The translations under genes and the position numbers were made by a program. Shown piece after piece: positions 8,942 to 54,622 of a stretch of DNA of 64,000 bases. The first letter of the stretch is position 1, and each line of letters starts with the position of its first letter. Under the pieces are notes generated by a model that saw only the letters and a program-made list of their open reading frames with translations, did not search any database and was not told where the DNA came from. The stretch comes from Methylomarinum vadi. Its GTDB lineage: Bacteria > Pseudomonadota > Gammaproteobacteria > Methylococcales > Methylomonadaceae. Location: positions 3,670,623 through 3,734,622 of the forward strand of contig NZ_JPON01000001.1 of NCBI RefSeq assembly GCF_000733935.1. Direction: 5' to 3'.

Positions 8942-9018
8942 GGAGCGGTAGTTCAGTTGGTTAGAATACCGGCCTGTCACGCCGGGGGTCGCGGGTTCGA
9001 GTCCCGTCCGCTCCGCCA
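8942..9018 (+). tRNA. tRNA-Asp (anticodon GTC)
   Basis: A 77-base tRNA with encoded CCA. The acceptor GGAGCGG pairs with CCGCTCC, the D arm contains GTTCAGTTGGTTAGAA, the anticodon loop is CCTGTCACG with anticodon GTC, and the T arm is GCGGGTTCGAGTCCCGT. Identity is clear from sequence alone. Confidence 0.98.
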
Positions 9019-18579: not shown

Positions 18580-18905
18580 CATCCCGTTATACACAAGTCA
18601 CTAAAAACGGTATGATCTAAATTTTTTGCATGAGGAGCTGTAAATCACCATGGGATGAGCAAAGGAAGACTAATCACTTGGAGATCAACATTTGAATGCG
18701 CGTTCAATCAAGCTGCTGAAGCAGTCTGCCGCGAAGCCGACGGCCTTTATTACTATGCCTTGTGGCGGCTGGACGAAAACGATAGCGGCTTATCGCTTCT
18801 TTGCTCAAGAAGAGATCGATTGGCGCGATATTCTGCAGCCGCATATAGACTGACCGTTCACGAGGATGCGTGCGTAACCGGTAGAGTTGTGTTTTCTGCT
18901 GACTA
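18580..18905 (+). pseudogene. Remnant of the IS4-family (Tn5-like) element, 5' part
   Basis: Starting with the same terminal repeat CATCCCGTTATACACAA, this stretch follows the first ~325 bases of the intact elements at 25157 and 51313. It contains the equivalent of the transposase start and the AETIAAYRFFAQEE region, but with small deletions and stops that break the frame. Homology ends around 18905, where an ISAs1-type remnant begins. No intron is present because the remnant stops far upstream of the intron site. Confidence 0.85.
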
Positions 18906-25147: not shown

Positions 25148-25156
25148 CCGTTAACT
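25148..25156. repeat. Target-site duplication of IS copy A, left
   Basis: CCGTTAACT, repeated exactly at 28453-28461. A 9-bp duplication is characteristic of Tn5/IS50-like IS4-family elements. Confidence 0.92.
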
Positions 25157-25226
25157 CATCCCGTTATACACAAGTCACTAAAAACAGTATGATCTGAGTT
25201 TTTTGCATGAGGAGCTGAAAGTCACC

Positions 25227-26166
25227 ATGGGATGGGCAAAGGAAGAGTTATCACGGATCGACCTAGGAGATCAACGTTTGAATGCACGTTCTATCAAACT
25301 GCTGAAGCAGTTTGCCGCGAAACCGACGGCCAGTATTCCTGGGGCCTGTGGCGGTTGGGCGGAAACTATAGCCGCCTATCGTTTCTTTGCTCAAGAAGAG
25401 GTGGACTGGCGTGATATTCTGCAGCCGCATATAGACTGCTCGTTGACGCGGATGCGTTCGCAACCGGTGGTGTTATGTTTGCAAGATACCACGGAGTTAG
25501 ATTTTAACGGTCGTCAAGGGCAAGGATTGGGGCCGTTATCGTATGAAGCGCAACGTGGAATGTATCTCCATCCGACGTATGCGGTAACGCCAGAGCGTTT
25601 ACCTTTAGGTGTCCTGGATGCCTGGATGTGGGCGCGCGAAGCGAAAGATGAACAAGGTCACCGTCCCGGTATTTTGGAGAGTTTGCGCTGGATTGAAGGC
25701 TACGAACGGATAGCCGAACGGGCCATCGAGTGTCCTGATACCCGATTGGTTTATGTTGCGGATCGAGAGGCCGATCTCTTGGCCTTAATGCAGCGGGCGG
25801 ATGCGCTTGGCCATCCGGCGGATTGGCTGATTCGAGCCAAACATAACCGCAAATTAAGTGGGGAGACGGACAAGCTATGGGATAAAGTCGCCCAAACCGA
25901 TGCGCTCGGAGAGCTAGGTTTTTACCTACCGCCGCGCGCTGGGCGCAAGGGACGAGATATCGTCCAACAGGTGCGATCATTGCGGGTCAGTTTGCCAGCC
26001 GAAGGCGGTGGGACATTTGAAGCTACGGCCATTTTGGCCAAAGAAATCGATCCACCGGCGGGAGAAAAACCCTTGGAATGGCGACTGTTAACGAACCGCG
26101 TCGGGAATACGCTATCCGAAGCGGCGGAATATGTAGACTGGTATCGTTGCCGCTGGGAGATCGAAA
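25227..26166 (+). CDS. IS4-family transposase, 5' exon (copy A)
   Basis: The N-terminal 313 codons. MGWAKEELSRIDLGDQRLNA opens the protein; the first catalytic aspartate is in VLCLQDTTELDF near residue 85, the second in VYVADREAD near residue 175, and the exon ends in WYRCRWEIE, the Y-R-E portion of the YREK signature. The ATG at 25227 is favoured (GAGGAG upstream) over TTG 25203. The frame would run on 10 codons into the intron to a stop at 26198. The catalytic domain is severed right after the catalytic glutamate, so function needs RNA splicing. Confidence 0.9.
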
Positions 26167-28052
26167 GTGTGCCGCAGGCACACAAGTTAGTCGCATAGGA
26201 TATGCGGTGAATTGTGGCTAAGCTCATTGGAAGATGGTGGTAGGCCCACCGGAGTCTGCTGTCGGAAGCCGGCTTCAAACCGCCTCAAGCTGCGTGTATT
26301 AAGAGTGCAGGTAGTGAGCGTTGAGGAAAAGTTAATGGATAATTAGCAGGTAAGGTATAGAGAGACGAGTAACCCCGAACCTTTGTTGACGCGTCGTCAT
26401 CCAGAGAATTGACATCAAAACCAGAGGCGTTTCGATCTTCTGGGATCAGTTTGCAAGTGAATTCCGAATGCTGTGCAAGCGGTGTCCGGCGTAAAGAAGG
26501 CGTGACTCTATAGCGGGCTTTCGATGGGAACTGCGGGAACCAGTCATCATGATGTGAAGAGAGGCATGCAAATAACGAAATTTATGAGCATCAGAGTATC
26601 GATGCATGATACTGGGGCGGAGTTGTTCGTAGTAGTGAGGAAGCGTTGGTAATGAACGTGGAGCGAAGGGACAACGTCGGGCTGCTTTGTTCAGGCTTCA
26701 ACTGTCGACAGACAGGAGGAAGGTCATGAGCCAAGCAAAACCTTTTGTCATTTCCAAATGGCAAGTCATGCGCGCGTTTGAATTGGTGAAAGCCAATGCA
26801 GGTGCCGCTGGCATTGATCAGCAAACCCTTGCAGAGTATGAAGGAAACCTGCAAGACAATCTTTACAAACTCTGGAACCGGTTATCGTCAGGCAGTTACT
26901 TTCCGCCGGCCGTTAAAGCGGTTGCGATCCCGAAGAAATCGGGGGGAGAGCGTCTACTGGGGATACCGACAGTGAATGATCGTGTGGCGCAGATGGTGGT
27001 CAAACTGAAATTTGAACCGGCAGTTGAACCGCATTTTCTCGCGGATTCGTATGGCTATAGACCGAACAAGTCAGCACTGGATGCGATCGGCGTTACTCGG
27101 GAACGCTGTTGGCATGACGACTGGGTGCTGGAATTCGACATCAAAGGATTGTTCGACAACATCCCGCATGATCTGTTGCTGAAAGCCGTTGATAAACACA
27201 CGGACTGTCCGTGGATTCGGCTTTATATCCGGCGTTGGTTAACGGCACCGATGCAGATGCCTAATGGCGAACAGGTGTCGCGGGAAAAGGGTACGCCACA
27301 AGGTGGCGTGATCAGTCCTTTGCTCGCCAACCTGTTTCTGCATTATGTCTTCGACAAATGGCTACAAAAGTATTATCCGAATACACCCTGGTGTCGCTAT
27401 GCGGATGATGGTTTGGTGCACTGTCGTAGTGAAAGGGAAGCCAAACAGATGCTGACAATCCTGGAACAGCGCTTCAAAGCTTGTGGATTAGAGCTGCATC
27501 CGCTGAAAACCAAGATCGTTTACTGTAAAGATGGTAGTCGTAAAGGACGCTATGAAAATACGGCCTTTGATTTTCTAGGTTATACCTTTAAGCCACGGCT
27601 CTGTAAAAATCGCAAACGCAACAGTTTGTTTGTGAATTTTACGCCGGCGGTCAGCAAAGTCGCCCTGAAAGCGATGCGACTGAAAATCAGGAAACTGCGC
27701 ATACGCATGCGTACCGAGCTGAGTATTGAGCAACTGGCTCAATGGCTGAATCCCATTATCAATGGATGGATTGGCTATTATGGTCGGTACTATCGATCGG
27801 CCTTGTATGCGATGTGTCGTCACTTCAACAAAACGTTGGTGAGATGGGCAAGACGAAAGTTTAAAGCCCTTCGATGGCACAAAACTAGAGCGGCGCAGTT
27901 TCTTGAACACATAGCTGAACAATGCCCGAACTTGTTCGCCCATTGGCGAGTAGGAATGACAGGCGCGTTTGCCTGATGGGAGCGGTATGAATCGAGAGGT
28001 TCACGTACCGTTCTGCGAGAGGCTGCGGGGGAAGTTCCCGCGGTCTACTCAC
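26167..28052 (+). mobile_element. Group II intron, copy A
   Basis: A 1886-base intron starting GTGTG and ending CTACTCAC. EBS1, TTTCGATCT at 26430-26438, is perfectly complementary to the last nine bases of the 5' exon (AGATCGAAA). The base before EBS1 is G and can pair with C28053, the first base of the 3' exon (delta-delta'). Domain V is 27980-28014, with the AGC triad and GAGCGGTA/TACCGTTC stem; domain VI follows with A28047 as probable branch point. A maturase is encoded in domain IV. It differs from copy B at only about seven positions. Confidence 0.92.
26726..27976 (+). CDS. ltrA: Group II intron-encoded reverse transcriptase/maturase (copy A)
   Basis: A 416-residue multifunctional protein. 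Reverse-transcriptase blocks: AVAIPKKSGGERLLGIPTVN, SYGYRPNKSALDAI, LEFDIKGLFDNIPHDLL, GTPQGGVISPLLANLFLHY, and the catalytic CRYADDGLVHC. The maturase (GIIM) domain is the C-terminal WLNPIINGWIGYYGRYYRSA. No HNH endonuclease follows, so it is of the short class. ATG 26726 has AGGAGG upstream; the frame to 26687 is an extension. It binds the intron RNA for splicing and primes reverse transcription at the target. The protein is identical in copy B. Confidence 0.95.
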   Translation: MSQAKPFVISKWQVMRAFELVKANAGAAGIDQQTLAEYEGNLQDNLYKLWNRLSSGSYFPPAVKAVAIPKKSGGERLLGIPTVNDRVAQMVVKLKFEPAVEPHFLADSYGYRPNKSALDAIGVTRERCWHDDWVLEFDIKGLFDNIPHDLLLKAVDKHTDCPWIRLYIRRWLTAPMQMPNGEQVSREKGTPQGGVISPLLANLFLHYVFDKWLQKYYPNTPWCRYADDGLVHCRSEREAKQMLTILEQRFKACGLELHPLKTKIVYCKDGSRKGRYENTAFDFLGYTFKPRLCKNRKRNSLFVNFTPAVSKVALKAMRLKIRKLRIRMRTELSIEQLAQWLNPIINGWIGYYGRYYRSALYAMCRHFNKTLVRWARRKFKALRWHKTRAAQFLEHIAEQCPNLFAHWRVGMTGAFA

Positions 28053-28433
28053 CTGTTTTTCAACATCTTGAAAAACGGCTGCAAGGTGGAAGCCTTGCAA
28101 TTATCTGCCATTTCACGCATCGAACTGGCATTGGCTTTGTTTATGATTATTGCCTGGCGAATCGGTTACTTGATGCGCTTGGGACGGGAATGTCCGGAGA
28201 TGGACTGCGAAGTGGTGTTTGATCGAGAAGAATGGCAAGCCGCTTGGTTGGTTGCCCGTAAACCCTTGCCGCCTGAGCCACCCAAACTCAATGAAGCGAT
28301 TCGATTAATTGCGAGTTTTGGTGGATTCTTGGGGCGCAAAGGCGATGGTGAACCTGGCGCCAAATCACTCTGGCAAGGATTACAGCGCGTCATGGATTTC
28401 GCCATGGGAATACGCGCTGTGCGGGAGACCTAG
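28053..28433 (+). CDS. IS4-family transposase, 3' exon (copy A)
   Basis: Starting at LFFNILKNGCKVEALQLS this exon supplies the lysine of YREK (K after E-x6) and the C-terminal region, ending GLQRVMDFAMGIRAVRET before TAG at 28433. The Y-x2-R-x3-E-x6-K spacing is exact if GAA of the 5' exon is followed directly by CTG of this exon. Splicing at the canonical intron ends leaves one extra A between them and would shift this exon out of frame. Confidence 0.85.
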   Translation: MFFNILKNGCKVEALQLSAISRIELALALFMIIAWRIGYLMRLGRECPEMDCEVVFDREEWQAAWLVARKPLPPEPPKLNEAIRLIASFGGFLGRKGDGEPGAKSLWQGLQRVMDFAMGIRAVRET

Positions 28434-28452
28434 ATTTGTGTATAACGGGATG

Positions 28453-28461
28453 CCGTTAACT
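28453..28461. repeat. Target-site duplication of IS copy A, right
   Basis: CCGTTAACT, exact match of 25148-25156. Confidence 0.92.
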
Positions 28462-51303: not shown

Positions 51304-51312
51304 GCTTTTAGG
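51304..51312. repeat. Target-site duplication of IS copy B, left
   Basis: GCTTTTAGG, repeated exactly at 54614-54622. Confidence 0.92.
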
Positions 51313-51382
51313 CATCCCGTTATACACAAGTCACTAAAAACGGTATGATCTGAATTTTTTGCATGAGGAGCTGAGAGTCACC

Positions 51383-52327
51383 ATGGGATGGGCAAAGGAA
51401 GAATTATCACGGATCGATCTTGGAGATCAACGGTTGAATGCGCGTTCAATCAAACTGCTTCAGCAGTTTGCCGCGAAGCCGACGGCTAGTATTCCTGGGG
51501 CCTGTGGCGGCTGGGCGGAAACGATAGCGGCCTATCGCTTCTTTGCTCAAGAAGAAGTCGATTGGCGTGATATTCTGCAGCCGCATATAGACTAGACTGC
51601 TCGTTCACGCGGATGCGTGGGCAACCGGTGGTGTTGTGTTTACAAGATACCACGGAGTTGGATTTCAATGGTCGGCAAACGCAAGGGTTGGGACCGTTAT
51701 CGTATGAAGCGCAACGCGGCATGCATCTCCATCCGACCTATGCGGTGACGCCAGAGCGTTTACCCTTAGGCGTCCTGGATGCTTGGATGTGGGCGCGCGA
51801 AGCGAAAGATGAACAAGGAGAACGCCCCGGTATTTTGGAGAGTTTACGTTGGATCGAGGGCTACGAACGGATAGCCGAACGAGCCAGCGATTTGCCGGAG
51901 ACCCGCTTGGTGTACGTGGCGGATCGAGAGGCCGATATCTTGGCCTTAATGCAACGGGCGGATGCGCTTGGCAAGCCAGCGGATTGGCTGATTCGAGCCA
52001 AGCATAATCGTAAGTTGACCGGAGAAACGGACAAGCTATGGGATAAAGTCGCCAAAACCGAACCACTCGGAGAGCTGAGTTTTTACTTACCCCCACGCGC
52101 CGGCCGCCAGGGGCGAAAAGTCGTCCAACAGATGCGAACACTGCGCGTCAGCTTTCCCGCTGAGAATGGAGGAACATTCGAGACAACCGCGATTTTAGCC
52201 AAAGAAATCGATCCGCCGGCAGGTGAAAAGCCCTTGGAATGGCGATTGTTGACGAACCGCGCCGCGAACACGCTATCTGAAGCAGCAGACTATGTGGACT
52301 GGTATCGCTGCCGTTGGGAGATCGAAA
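51383..52327 (+). pseudogene. IS4-family transposase, 5' exon (copy B), frameshifted
   Basis: The first 70 codons run MGWAKEELSRIDLGDQRLNA to DILQPHID and stop at a TAG near 51593. Compared with copy A the stretch ATAGAC-TAGAC-TGCTCG contains a 5-base tandem duplication (TAGAC). The rest continues in another frame from about 51600 (VVLCLQDTTELDF, VYVADREAD, WYRCRWEIE). Both catalytic aspartates and the glutamate are retained but the frame is broken, so this copy cannot make transposase even if the intron splices. Confidence 0.9.
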
Positions 52328-54213
52328 GTGTGCCGCTGGCACACAAGTTAGCCGCATAGGATATGCGGTGAATTGTGGCTAAGCTCATTGGAAGATGGTG
52401 GTAGGTCCACCGGAGTCTGCTGTTGGAAGCCGGCTTCAAACCGCCTCAAGCTGCGTGTATTAAGAGTGCAGGTAGTGAGCGTTGAGGAAAAGTTAATGGA
52501 TAATTAGCAGGTAAGGTATAGAGAGACGAGTAACCCCGAACCTTTGTTGACGCGTCGTCATCCAGAGAATTGACATCAAAACCAGAGGCGTTTCGATCTT
52601 CTGGGATCAGTTTGCAAGTGAATTCCGAATGCTGTGCAAGCGGTGTCCGGCGTAAAGAAGGCGTGACTCTATAGCGGGCTTTCGATGGGAACTGCGGGAA
52701 CCAGTCATCATGATGTGAAGAGAGGCATGCAAATAACGAAATTTATGAGCATCAGAGTATCGATGCATGATACTGGGGCGGAGTTGTTCGTAGTAGTGAG
52801 GAAGCGTTGGTAATGAACGTGGAGCGAAGGGACAACGTCGGGCTGCTTTGTTCAGGCTTCAACTGTCGACAGACAGGAGGAAGGTCATGAGCCAAGCAAA
52901 ACCTTTTGTCATTTCCAAATGGCAAGTCATGCGCGCGTTTGAATTGGTGAAAGCCAATGCAGGTGCCGCTGGCATTGATCAGCAAACCCTTGCAGAGTAT
53001 GAAGGAAACCTGCAAGACAATCTTTACAAACTCTGGAACCGGTTATCGTCAGGCAGTTACTTTCCGCCGGCCGTTAAAGCGGTTGCGATCCCGAAGAAAT
53101 CGGGGGGAGAGCGTCTACTGGGGATACCGACAGTGAATGATCGTGTGGCGCAGATGGTGGTCAAACTGAAATTTGAACCGGCAGTTGAACCGCATTTTCT
53201 CGCGGATTCGTATGGCTATAGACCGAACAAGTCAGCACTGGATGCGATCGGCGTTACTCGGGAACGCTGTTGGCATGACGACTGGGTGCTGGAATTCGAC
53301 ATCAAAGGATTGTTCGACAACATCCCGCATGATCTGTTGCTGAAAGCCGTTGATAAACACACGGACTGTCCGTGGATTCGGCTTTATATCCGGCGTTGGT
53401 TAACGGCACCGATGCAGATGCCTAATGGCGAACAGGTGTCGCGGGAAAAGGGTACGCCACAAGGTGGCGTGATCAGTCCTTTGCTCGCCAACCTGTTTCT
53501 GCATTATGTCTTCGACAAATGGCTACAAAAGTATTATCCGAATACACCCTGGTGTCGCTATGCGGATGATGGTTTGGTGCACTGTCGTAGTGAAAGGGAA
53601 GCCAAACAGATGCTGACAATCCTGGAACAGCGCTTCAAAGCTTGTGGATTAGAGCTGCATCCGCTGAAAACCAAGATCGTTTACTGTAAAGATGGTAGTC
53701 GTAAAGGACGCTATGAAAATACGGCCTTTGATTTTCTAGGTTATACCTTTAAGCCACGGCTCTGTAAAAATCGCAAACGCAACAGTTTGTTTGTGAATTT
53801 TACGCCAGCGGTGAGCAAAGTCGCCCTGAAAGCGATGCGACTGAAAATCAGGAAACTGCGCATACGCATGCGTACCGAGCTGAGTATTGAGCAACTAGCT
53901 CAATGGCTGAATCCCATTATCAATGGATGGATTGGCTATTATGGTCGGTACTATCGATCGGCCTTGTATGCGATGTGTCGTCACTTCAACAAAACGTTGG
54001 TGAGATGGGCAAGACGAAAGTTTAAAGCCCTTCGATGGCACAAAACTAGAGCGGCGCAGTTTCTTGAACACATAGCTGAACAATGCCCGAACTTGTTCGC
54101 CCATTGGCGAGTAGGAATGACAGGCGCGTTTGCCTGATGGGAGCGGTATGAATCGAGAGGTTCACGTACCGTTCTGCGAGAGGCTGCGGGGGAAGTTCCC
54201 GCGGTCTACTCAC
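52328..54213 (+). mobile_element. Group II intron, copy B
   Basis: Exactly 1886 bases, beginning GTGTG and ending CTACTCAC at the same transposase position as copy A. EBS1 (TTTCGATCT) is at 52591-52599 and pairs with the last nine bases of the 5' exon. By eye about seven substitutions separate it from copy A: four in the first ~120 bases and three in the maturase region, all silent in the protein. Confidence 0.92.
52887..54137 (+). CDS. ltrA: Group II intron-encoded reverse transcriptase/maturase (copy B)
   Basis: A 416-residue protein identical to the copy A maturase, with intact reverse-transcriptase (YADD in CRYADDGLVHC) and maturase domains. ATG 52887 follows AGGAGG. Retention of an intact, identical protein in a host transposase that is already dead shows that selection or recency, not the IS, maintains it. 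It can act in trans on either intron copy. Confidence 0.95.
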   Translation: MSQAKPFVISKWQVMRAFELVKANAGAAGIDQQTLAEYEGNLQDNLYKLWNRLSSGSYFPPAVKAVAIPKKSGGERLLGIPTVNDRVAQMVVKLKFEPAVEPHFLADSYGYRPNKSALDAIGVTRERCWHDDWVLEFDIKGLFDNIPHDLLLKAVDKHTDCPWIRLYIRRWLTAPMQMPNGEQVSREKGTPQGGVISPLLANLFLHYVFDKWLQKYYPNTPWCRYADDGLVHCRSEREAKQMLTILEQRFKACGLELHPLKTKIVYCKDGSRKGRYENTAFDFLGYTFKPRLCKNRKRNSLFVNFTPAVSKVALKAMRLKIRKLRIRMRTELSIEQLAQWLNPIINGWIGYYGRYYRSALYAMCRHFNKTLVRWARRKFKALRWHKTRAAQFLEHIAEQCPNLFAHWRVGMTGAFA

Positions 54214-54594
54214 CTGTTTTTCAACATCTTGAAAAACGGCTGCAAGGTGGAAGCCTTGCAATTATCTGCCATTTCACGCATCGAACTGGCATTGGCTTTG
54301 TTTATGATTATTGCCTGGCGAATCGGTTACTTGATGCTCTTGGGGCGGGAATGTCCGGAGCTGGACTGCGAAGTGGTGTTTGATCGTGAAGAATGGCAAG
54401 CCGCTTGGTTGGTTGCCCGAAAACCTTTGCCGCCTGAACCGCCCAAACTCAATGAAGCGATTCGATTGATTGCGAGTTTTGGCGGGTTCTTGGGACGTAA
54501 AGGCGATGGAGAACCGGGCGCCAAATCACTCTGGCAAGGATTGCAGCGCGTCATGGACTTCGCCATGGGAATACGCGCGGTGCGGGAGACCTAG
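54214..54594 (+). CDS. IS4-family transposase, 3' exon (copy B)
   Basis: LFFNILKNGCKVEALQLS to GIRAVRET before TAG, parallel to copy A. The first 124 bases are identical to copy A; the remaining ~257 bases contain 18 differences, nearly all at silent third positions. As the 5' exon is frameshifted, this exon is not translated as transposase. Confidence 0.85.
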   Translation: MFFNILKNGCKVEALQLSAISRIELALALFMIIAWRIGYLMLLGRECPELDCEVVFDREEWQAAWLVARKPLPPEPPKLNEAIRLIASFGGFLGRKGDGEPGAKSLWQGLQRVMDFAMGIRAVRET

Positions 54595-54613
54595 GTTTGT
54601 GTATAAAGGAATG

Positions 54614-54622
54614 GCTTTTAGG
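54614..54622. repeat. Target-site duplication of IS copy B, right
   Basis: GCTTTTAGG, exact match of 51304-51312. Confidence 0.92.

Follow-up and report, generated by a model that had tools for sequence, protein, structure and literature searches.

A 64,000-nucleotide stretch of the Methylomarinum vadi genome (contig NZ_JPON01000001.1, positions 3,670,623 to 3,734,622; here called the window and numbered from its first letter) was found to carry a group II intron within the transposase gene of an IS4-family insertion sequence (IS) of the Tn5/IS50 type. We consider it very likely from the sequence that this RmInt1-like intron colonised IS4/Tn5-type elements by pairing of its exon-binding site 1 (EBS1) with the intron-binding site 1 (IBS1) in the DNA coding for Trp-Glu-Ile-Glu (WEIE) in the transposase. 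Both splice sites and the complementarity of the guide are evident, and the IS and its intron have moved jointly, with new target duplications. Two IS4 subtypes also share the intron, in a pattern suggestive of transfer. In the mechanism we favour, the guide EBS1 would read the DNA encoding the catalytic Trp-Glu-Ile-Glu stretch, splicing of the intron would let transposase be made, and spread would proceed by reverse splicing into conserved active-site DNA together with recombination. Relatives would jump between unrelated mobile-element enzymes after few guide changes, because similar GAN-rich stretches, readable by one guide, encode the catalytic acids. The first copy of the element is organised as follows.

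25148 to 25156, unstranded: left 9-bp target duplication, CCGTTAACT; right copy at 28453 to 28461
25157 to 28452, plus strand: IS4-family (Tn5/IS50-type) element, copy 1, with the intron inside; inverted ends CATCCCGTTATACACAA and TTGTGTATAACGGGATG
25227 to 26166, plus strand: transposase 5' exon, ending in WYRCRWEIE plus one base (GAA A)
26159 to 26166, plus strand: IBS1, GATCGAAA, the eight bases before the intron, from pairing analysis
26167 to 28053, plus strand: group II intron, GTGTG...CTCACC, 1887 nt, from structure matches and intron-free relatives
26236 to 26351, plus strand: group II intron D1-D4-2 (RF01999), Rfam match
26430 to 26437, plus strand: predicted EBS1, TTTCGATC, complementary to IBS1 at 8/8 positions
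26726 to 27976, plus strand: intron-encoded reverse transcriptase (RT)/maturase, 416 aa, with a CRYADD motif, from an open reading frame (ORF) and profile matches
27978 to 28053, plus strand: domains V-VI (RF00029), Rfam match
28047, plus strand: predicted branch A, 6 nt before the intron end, read by eye from the sequence
28054 to 28433, plus strand: transposase 3' exon, the rest of a Met codon and then FFNILK..., with the Tn5 dimerisation domain

The two exons matched consecutive parts of the IS4-family model NF033590 (model positions 1-284 at 234.9 bits for the 5' exon, then 284-404 at 128.6 bits for the 3' exon) and also Pfam PF14706 and PF02281, with a Tn5-type DNA-binding domain in front and the Tn5 dimerisation domain behind. 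The spliced motif reads YRCRWEIE-MFFNILK, in which YREK is present. Terminal inverted repeats and short target duplications were likewise found, three copies having three different 9-bp duplications; the limits of copy 1 were set where identity to the third copy starts (25157) and stops (within 2 bases of 28452). The first-pass annotation, made from the letters of the window, had proposed a group II intron inside an IS4-family transposase at YREK, and on this point the intron and exon model matches concur: at the level of sequence the host is confirmed as an IS4-family, IS50/Tn5-type transposase interrupted just after the YREK glutamate.

To place the splice sites, the joined transposase was compared with 151 genomes of the same family (own genome included), 12 of which gave matches. 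The junction was inspected in 24 of the 30 loci returned, the six from the window's own genome being omitted; several of the 24 overlap or are copies of one IS. It was contiguous, with no insert, in 20/24 loci, some of these copies having stops or frameshifts; the other four were either degenerate upstream (L131, L137; loci are cited by L number) or unaligned at that point (L124, L128). Intron-free L115, from the same genus, and L116 read TGGGARATYGAAA followed directly by TGTTYTT, that is, GAAA joined to TG. Thus, the intron spans 26167-28053, and the residue after the glutamate is methionine. The intron does adjoin the catalytic Glu codon, as first proposed, but by L115 and L116 the junction falls one nucleotide later. 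Likewise the Y-x2-R-x3-E-x6-K spacing expected of a direct exon join holds, but its E-L-FFNILK sequence (GAA + CTG) was wrong and is in fact WEIE-M-FFNILK. This E-L junction was ruled out because it leaves the exons out of frame and disagrees with the empty sites, as does an intron end at 28052 (CTCAC) suggested by analogy to Ll.LtrB. Positions 26153-28176, initially given as the intron, are not its ends: the window's two copies last differ in the 5' exon at 26153 and first differ in the 3' exon at 28177. A related intron from Escherichia coli has an agreeing 3' end, its joined flanks (L070) aligning ungapped over 120 bases to K-12 ydcC (ISAs1). RmInt1 ends in CC and has GAUGAGA as IBS1 (PMC4238363), which agrees with the 3' end in the window.

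Within these limits the intron has a domain V, a D1, an RT/maturase ORF, a GTGYG start and a 3' end a few nucleotides past a predicted bulged A. The Rfam matches were both over gathering (RF01999, 99.7 bits, 2.8e-19; RF00029, 55.1 bits, 4.5e-8). The RT matched TIGR04416 at 412.5 bits (1.4e-123) as well as Pfam RVT_1 and GIIM, and no endonuclease model was found among its Pfam and NCBIfam matches at E 0.001. In an RT tree of 41 rows, built without reference RTs of other classes, it fell within a 20-row clade (100/97) of RmInt1-like RTs. The window intron is a full-length, RmInt1-like, endonuclease-less group II intron.

The single 4.34-Mb contig contains three full-length introns. Two lie in the window, and the third is on the minus strand at 1179311-1181196. 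Copies 1 and 3 are identical across the whole IS except at three sites, all intron-internal, and their 9-bp duplications differ (CCGTTAACT for copy 1, CCCTTAATC for copy 3). Thus, the IS moved with its intron, which bears out the earlier suggestion that the intron rides a transposon. The second window copy comprises the following features.

51313 to 54613, plus strand: second IS4 element with intron; 9-bp duplication GCTTTTAGG at 51304-51312 and 54614-54622
51588 to 51592, plus strand: 5-bp TAGAC duplication that frameshifts the second transposase, from comparison of the copies
52328 to 54214, plus strand: second intron copy, 1887 nt

An uninterrupted transposase of this type was not found in the window's own genome (single contig) by DNA, protein and profile searches. 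Splicing is therefore the likeliest origin of the transposase used in the latest jump, the alternative being an intron-free copy since lost; the stronger claim, that transposition of the IS requires intron splicing, is so far supported only indirectly. It could instead be supposed that the intron is inert and merely breaks the transposase, both elements being in decay, and the frameshift in the second transposase is what such a view would predict. We regard this as quite improbable, since the RT frame is open in 3/3 genome copies, domains V-VI and the EBS1-IBS1 pairing are intact, two near-identical copies of IS plus intron have separate 9-bp duplications, and the genome searches yielded no intact copy lacking the intron. 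Other traces of such elements in this genome are a degenerate intron relative (L013, C1:1773037-1774826), 63% identical over one part and 88% over domain V, and a remnant in the window.

18580 to 18894, plus strand: 5' remnant of a related IS4 element with terminal repeat and no intron part

We next compared the two window copies, the exons of which belong to different IS4 subtypes. Across the 5' exon, 107 of 722 positions differ (25432-26153), compared with only 7 of 1887 in the introns. The first 123 nt of the 3' exon are identical (28054-28176, 54215-54337), the two IS copies being otherwise 8-15% diverged; at the rate of difference seen in the 3' exon beyond this tract, the chance of such a run is ~4e-5. 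The second copy's 5' exon lies 5.8% from intron-free L115 and 12.7% from the first copy, and groups with L115 and L128. Taken together, its nearness to L115, the near-identical intron and the shared 123 nt suggest that the intron probably reached the second subtype along with donor 3' exon. We read the tract as co-conversion, consider it very likely that gene conversion between copies took part, and conclude that the intron probably passed between diverged IS4 elements.

A simpler history would have a single entry into an ancestral IS4, inherited by both subtypes, with the near-identity of the introns produced by later gene conversion and no homing at all. Some of the data lean towards it and away from guided spread: all four differences between the second and third copies lie within the first 97 nt of the intron, as if an older 5' end had outlived a conversion tract of ~26264-28176, a clustering more suggestive of a mosaic left by gene conversion than of a single clean retrohoming event; and beyond the 123-nt tract the second copy's 3' exon is nearer the first copy (7.9%) than L115 (10.5%), with weak tree support. 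However, in the 5' exon the second copy clusters with L115 and L128, both intron-free, and not with the first copy, so that intron loss would be needed, and the IS4 junctions elsewhere are empty (20/24 contiguous, 4 degenerate or unaligned). On balance we find a single ancestral entry rather unlikely. For transfer between subtypes, the picture is mixed in one respect: homing across diverged IS relatives, as originally envisaged, is what the comparison of the two copies with L115 points to, but the intron was present in 0/24 of the IS4 loci elsewhere, and the prediction of the same intron at the YREK site of other IS4 members failed in those 24 loci examined in other genomes. Relatives were instead detected at the equivalent W-x-[IV]-E site of other transposase families.

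The pairing of guide and target was examined in 37 introns, the second window copy being omitted as a near-duplicate and the near-identical pairs L016/L018, L091/L105 and L109/L112 kept, with intron 5' ends picked by eye among candidates. Pairing to the intron's own target averaged 5.70/7 compared to 3.91 after shuffling, and 0/5000 shuffles reached 5.70; the score was at least 6 in 22/37 introns.

Relatives with a full-length RT at least 79% identical were found in Methylococcaceae and Paraglaciecola. DNA matches, mostly short, occurred in 30/101 genomes (100 relatives plus own), and RT searches at their cut-offs gave 8/369 for the class, 23/311 for the order, 5/397 for the phylum and 4/289 for another of its classes, counts that include the own genome where sampled. 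Five loci came from viral contigs, and plasmid loci were taken at 13/60 and 1/30 among the matches listed. Insertion sites were analysed for 38 introns, with the 3' end located in 36 (all except L102 and L105). They are given below with a slash at the split and the split codon shown completed.

IS4 WEIE/M: window intron
ISAs1 WGIE/N: L069
ISAs1 WRLD/V: L070
RCRWKIE/N: L017
RCRWKVE/H: L071
IS3 WSWD/I: L075
IS3 SDI/T: L090
IS3 WDN/A: L089, L093, L111
IS66 HADE/T: L091
IS66 DD/T: L109, L112
IS630 FIDE/T: L078
IS5 NQW/Y (QW/YFGMK): L059
IS982 GL/K (GL/KLH): L154
NSSMP/P (NSSMP/PSSD): L064
Reverse transcriptase YADD/x: L076, L149, L152, L155
Reverse transcriptase FLGY/T: L056
Host gene, HD domain, SGEP/Y: L072
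Host gene, oxidoreductase start: L092
Host gene, YdeI-like protein: L153

Family models back the assignments of L069, L075 (a partial match, under its cut-off), L090, L091, L093, L109, L059, L154 and L078 and of the RTs at L056, L076, L149 and L152. DDE matches for L017 and L071 were weak and sub-threshold, and the L070 element is named ISAs1 in E. coli records. The targets of L089, L111, L112, L155, L064 and L102 were named by motif and are presumed; the best Pfam match of L064 was DUF6444. The L108 target may be the start of an IS21 transposase, where the contig ends, and L077 lies within the apparent domain V of another group II intron (by eye). At the same site as L069, L025 is an intron 91% identical to that of the window, at WGIE/N of ISAs1 in Methylobacter sp. 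YRD-M1; the EBS1 of the Methylobacter ISAs1 intron, GTTCTATC, differs from TTTCGATC at 2/8 bases.

Further observations concern individual sites. L070 is a related intron in an E. coli ISAs1 copy, and L145 is an annotated ltrA next to a truncated ISAs1; the 5' exon of the L070-type ISAs1 was matched in 5292/5426 E. coli genomes. Introns after the YADD of another RT were seen at L076, L149, L151, L152 and L155. The split RT at L149 gave an RVT_1 match and no GIIM match over the piece searched, and at L155, in a run of group II-type RT/maturase genes, the apparent intron start directly follows another intron's end.

From these sites we tentatively propose an active-site rule, by which RmInt1-type guides read catalytic-acid codons, hopping between IS4, ISAs1, IS3, IS66 and IS630 transposases and RTs at YADD, with the codon almost always split after its first base. 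In 9 of 16 target classes the split codon was within 3 codons of a presumed catalytic acid, compared to 0.87 expected (P ~3e-8) from a random-position null in the ORF that takes no account of sequence conservation; with the three W-x-[IV]-E classes merged, this was 7/14 (P ~3.5e-6). The codon was split after its first base (phase 1) at 21/24 coding sites (P ~6e-8), several of these introns sharing one target class. The classes were compiled by hand. The distances, the lengths of the proteins and the presumed catalytic residues were likewise entered by hand, and two of the 16 classes are shaky, L102 (seen on its 5' side only) and L108 (at a contig end). Since the catalytic assignments rest partly on general family knowledge and the classes, like the 24 sites, are not fully independent of one another, the P values are a guide and not proof. 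The phase count omits L080, whose frame is ambiguous, L108, which lies at a contig end, and L155, in which another intron forms the 3' exon. Omitted from the distance count were targets without resolved identity (L013, L057, L060, L061, L067, L094, L095, L097, L099, L110), plasmid loci without a clear boundary (L073, L074), host-gene sites (L072, L092, L153), non-coding sites (L016, L018-L022, L083-L087, L103, L077), loci with a 3' side only (L058, L147, L148, L150, L100, L101), repeat class members (including L079, L080, L081, L082, L088, L098, L104, L105, L112, L113) and short partial DNA matches. In the RT tree, the IS66 first-acid sites fall into two separate clades, both well supported. 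The IS3 first-acid sites also fall into two, and the W-x-[IV]-E sites into at least two (one with the window group and L017, another with L071). YADD sites turn up in three places, a split that rests on weakly supported deep forks. With the same sites recurring in separate clades, these sites look repeatedly won.

It is a serious possibility, close to evenly poised, that there is no preference for catalytic codons and that the introns insert into whatever DNA is most conserved or abundant, catalytic codons being merely a part of it. Sites conserved by eye and non-catalytic are indeed used (the IS5, IS982, RT FLGY, NSSMP and HD-domain sites above), as is a non-coding multicopy repeat. Against this stands the presence of 8/16 classes within 2 codons of a presumed catalytic acid, compared to 0.6 expected at random ORF sites, although that null ignores conservation.

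Beyond the 3'-exon distances and the clustered differences described above, other results weigh against guided spread into active-site DNA. Pairing was poor or moderate (<5.5/7) in 12/37 introns, with low scores at W-x-[IV]-E sites (L069, 5; L017, 4.5; L071, 4) and a score of 3 for L064, L072 and L154. A convincing EBS2 was not found for the window intron, the EBS2-IBS2 candidates being weak (6 nt), and RmInt1 splices poorly in vivo (PMC4238363). Seven of 16 classes lie more than 3 codons from a catalytic acid, and insertions also occur in three host genes and at non-coding sites of two kinds. A close sister group (Methylotuvimicrobium and allies: L016, L018-L022, L083-L087, L103) resides in a short repeat that is non-coding, which shows that this lineage uses abundant targets without coding function as well. 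The EBS1 of L016 and L018, from this group, is TCCAAGA, and intron-free repeats are common (29 matches at up to 2 mismatches in one genome). L156-L163 are listed along with these sister introns of the dispersed repeat. Our confidence both in the colonisation of IS4 elements and in the active-site rule is tempered by the 3'-exon distances, by weak pairing in some introns and by the number of independent gains of W-x-[IV]-E sites that could be counted. Apart from these elements, the window contains a tRNA gene at 8942-9015, probably tRNA-Asp (GTC read by eye).

If guided spread is correct, it would explain how a sequence-specific retroelement outlasts the loss of its home site: the catalytic codons of mobile-element enzymes would be conserved, abundant targets spread by the elements themselves. 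Each move of the IS would be conditional on intron splicing, so that one selfish element would rely on another in a way open to testing, and the natural guide changes could inform intron retargeting.

That group II introns occur in IS elements is well established (PMC3522654, PMC5894124, PMC4238363); in the cases described, one intron occupies specific positions in several IS3 relatives, and an intron is reported from two kinds of IS (PMC3522654). A cross-family catalytic-codon rule was not found among the titles and abstract openings consulted or in the excerpts of PMC8919778, PMC4424553, PMC4496777 and PMC3552965, and may already be published. RmInt1 (IIB3/class D; ISRm2011-2, IS630 family, Sinorhizobium meliloti) likewise encodes an RT/maturase without endonuclease and resides in an IS transposase. 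The window RT shares 60% identity with the RmInt1-like RT of L080 from S. meliloti, and the RmInt1-like introns L078 and L080 are 1884 and 1885 nt long compared to 1887 nt. The RmInt1-like intron splits the codon after FIDE in an IS630-family host, whereas the window intron splits the codon after the YREK Glu in an IS4/Tn5-type host; and RmInt1 is said to block the spread of its IS (PMC4238363, PMC5894124), whereas the window IS moved with its intron. E.c.I4 and c-Ha.de.I1 of Enterobacteriales are also found in IS elements, with c-Ha.de.I1 copies inserted in ISPlu15-like and IS427-like elements as well as in one another; for these introns conversion between copies has been described, and the excerpted text makes no mention of catalytic codons (PMC3522654). 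Closest to the window is the plasmid intron of Methylobacter sp. YRD-M1 (L069; RT 92% and intron 91% identical), which has the same W-x-I-E site and reading phase in a different IS family, ISAs1, with GTTCTATC in place of TTTCGATC as EBS1. Inteins and group I introns in active-site motifs are likewise selfish elements that persist at the most conserved codons of enzymes; by contrast, the window intron is an RNA-guided retroelement, and its hosts are themselves mobile elements.

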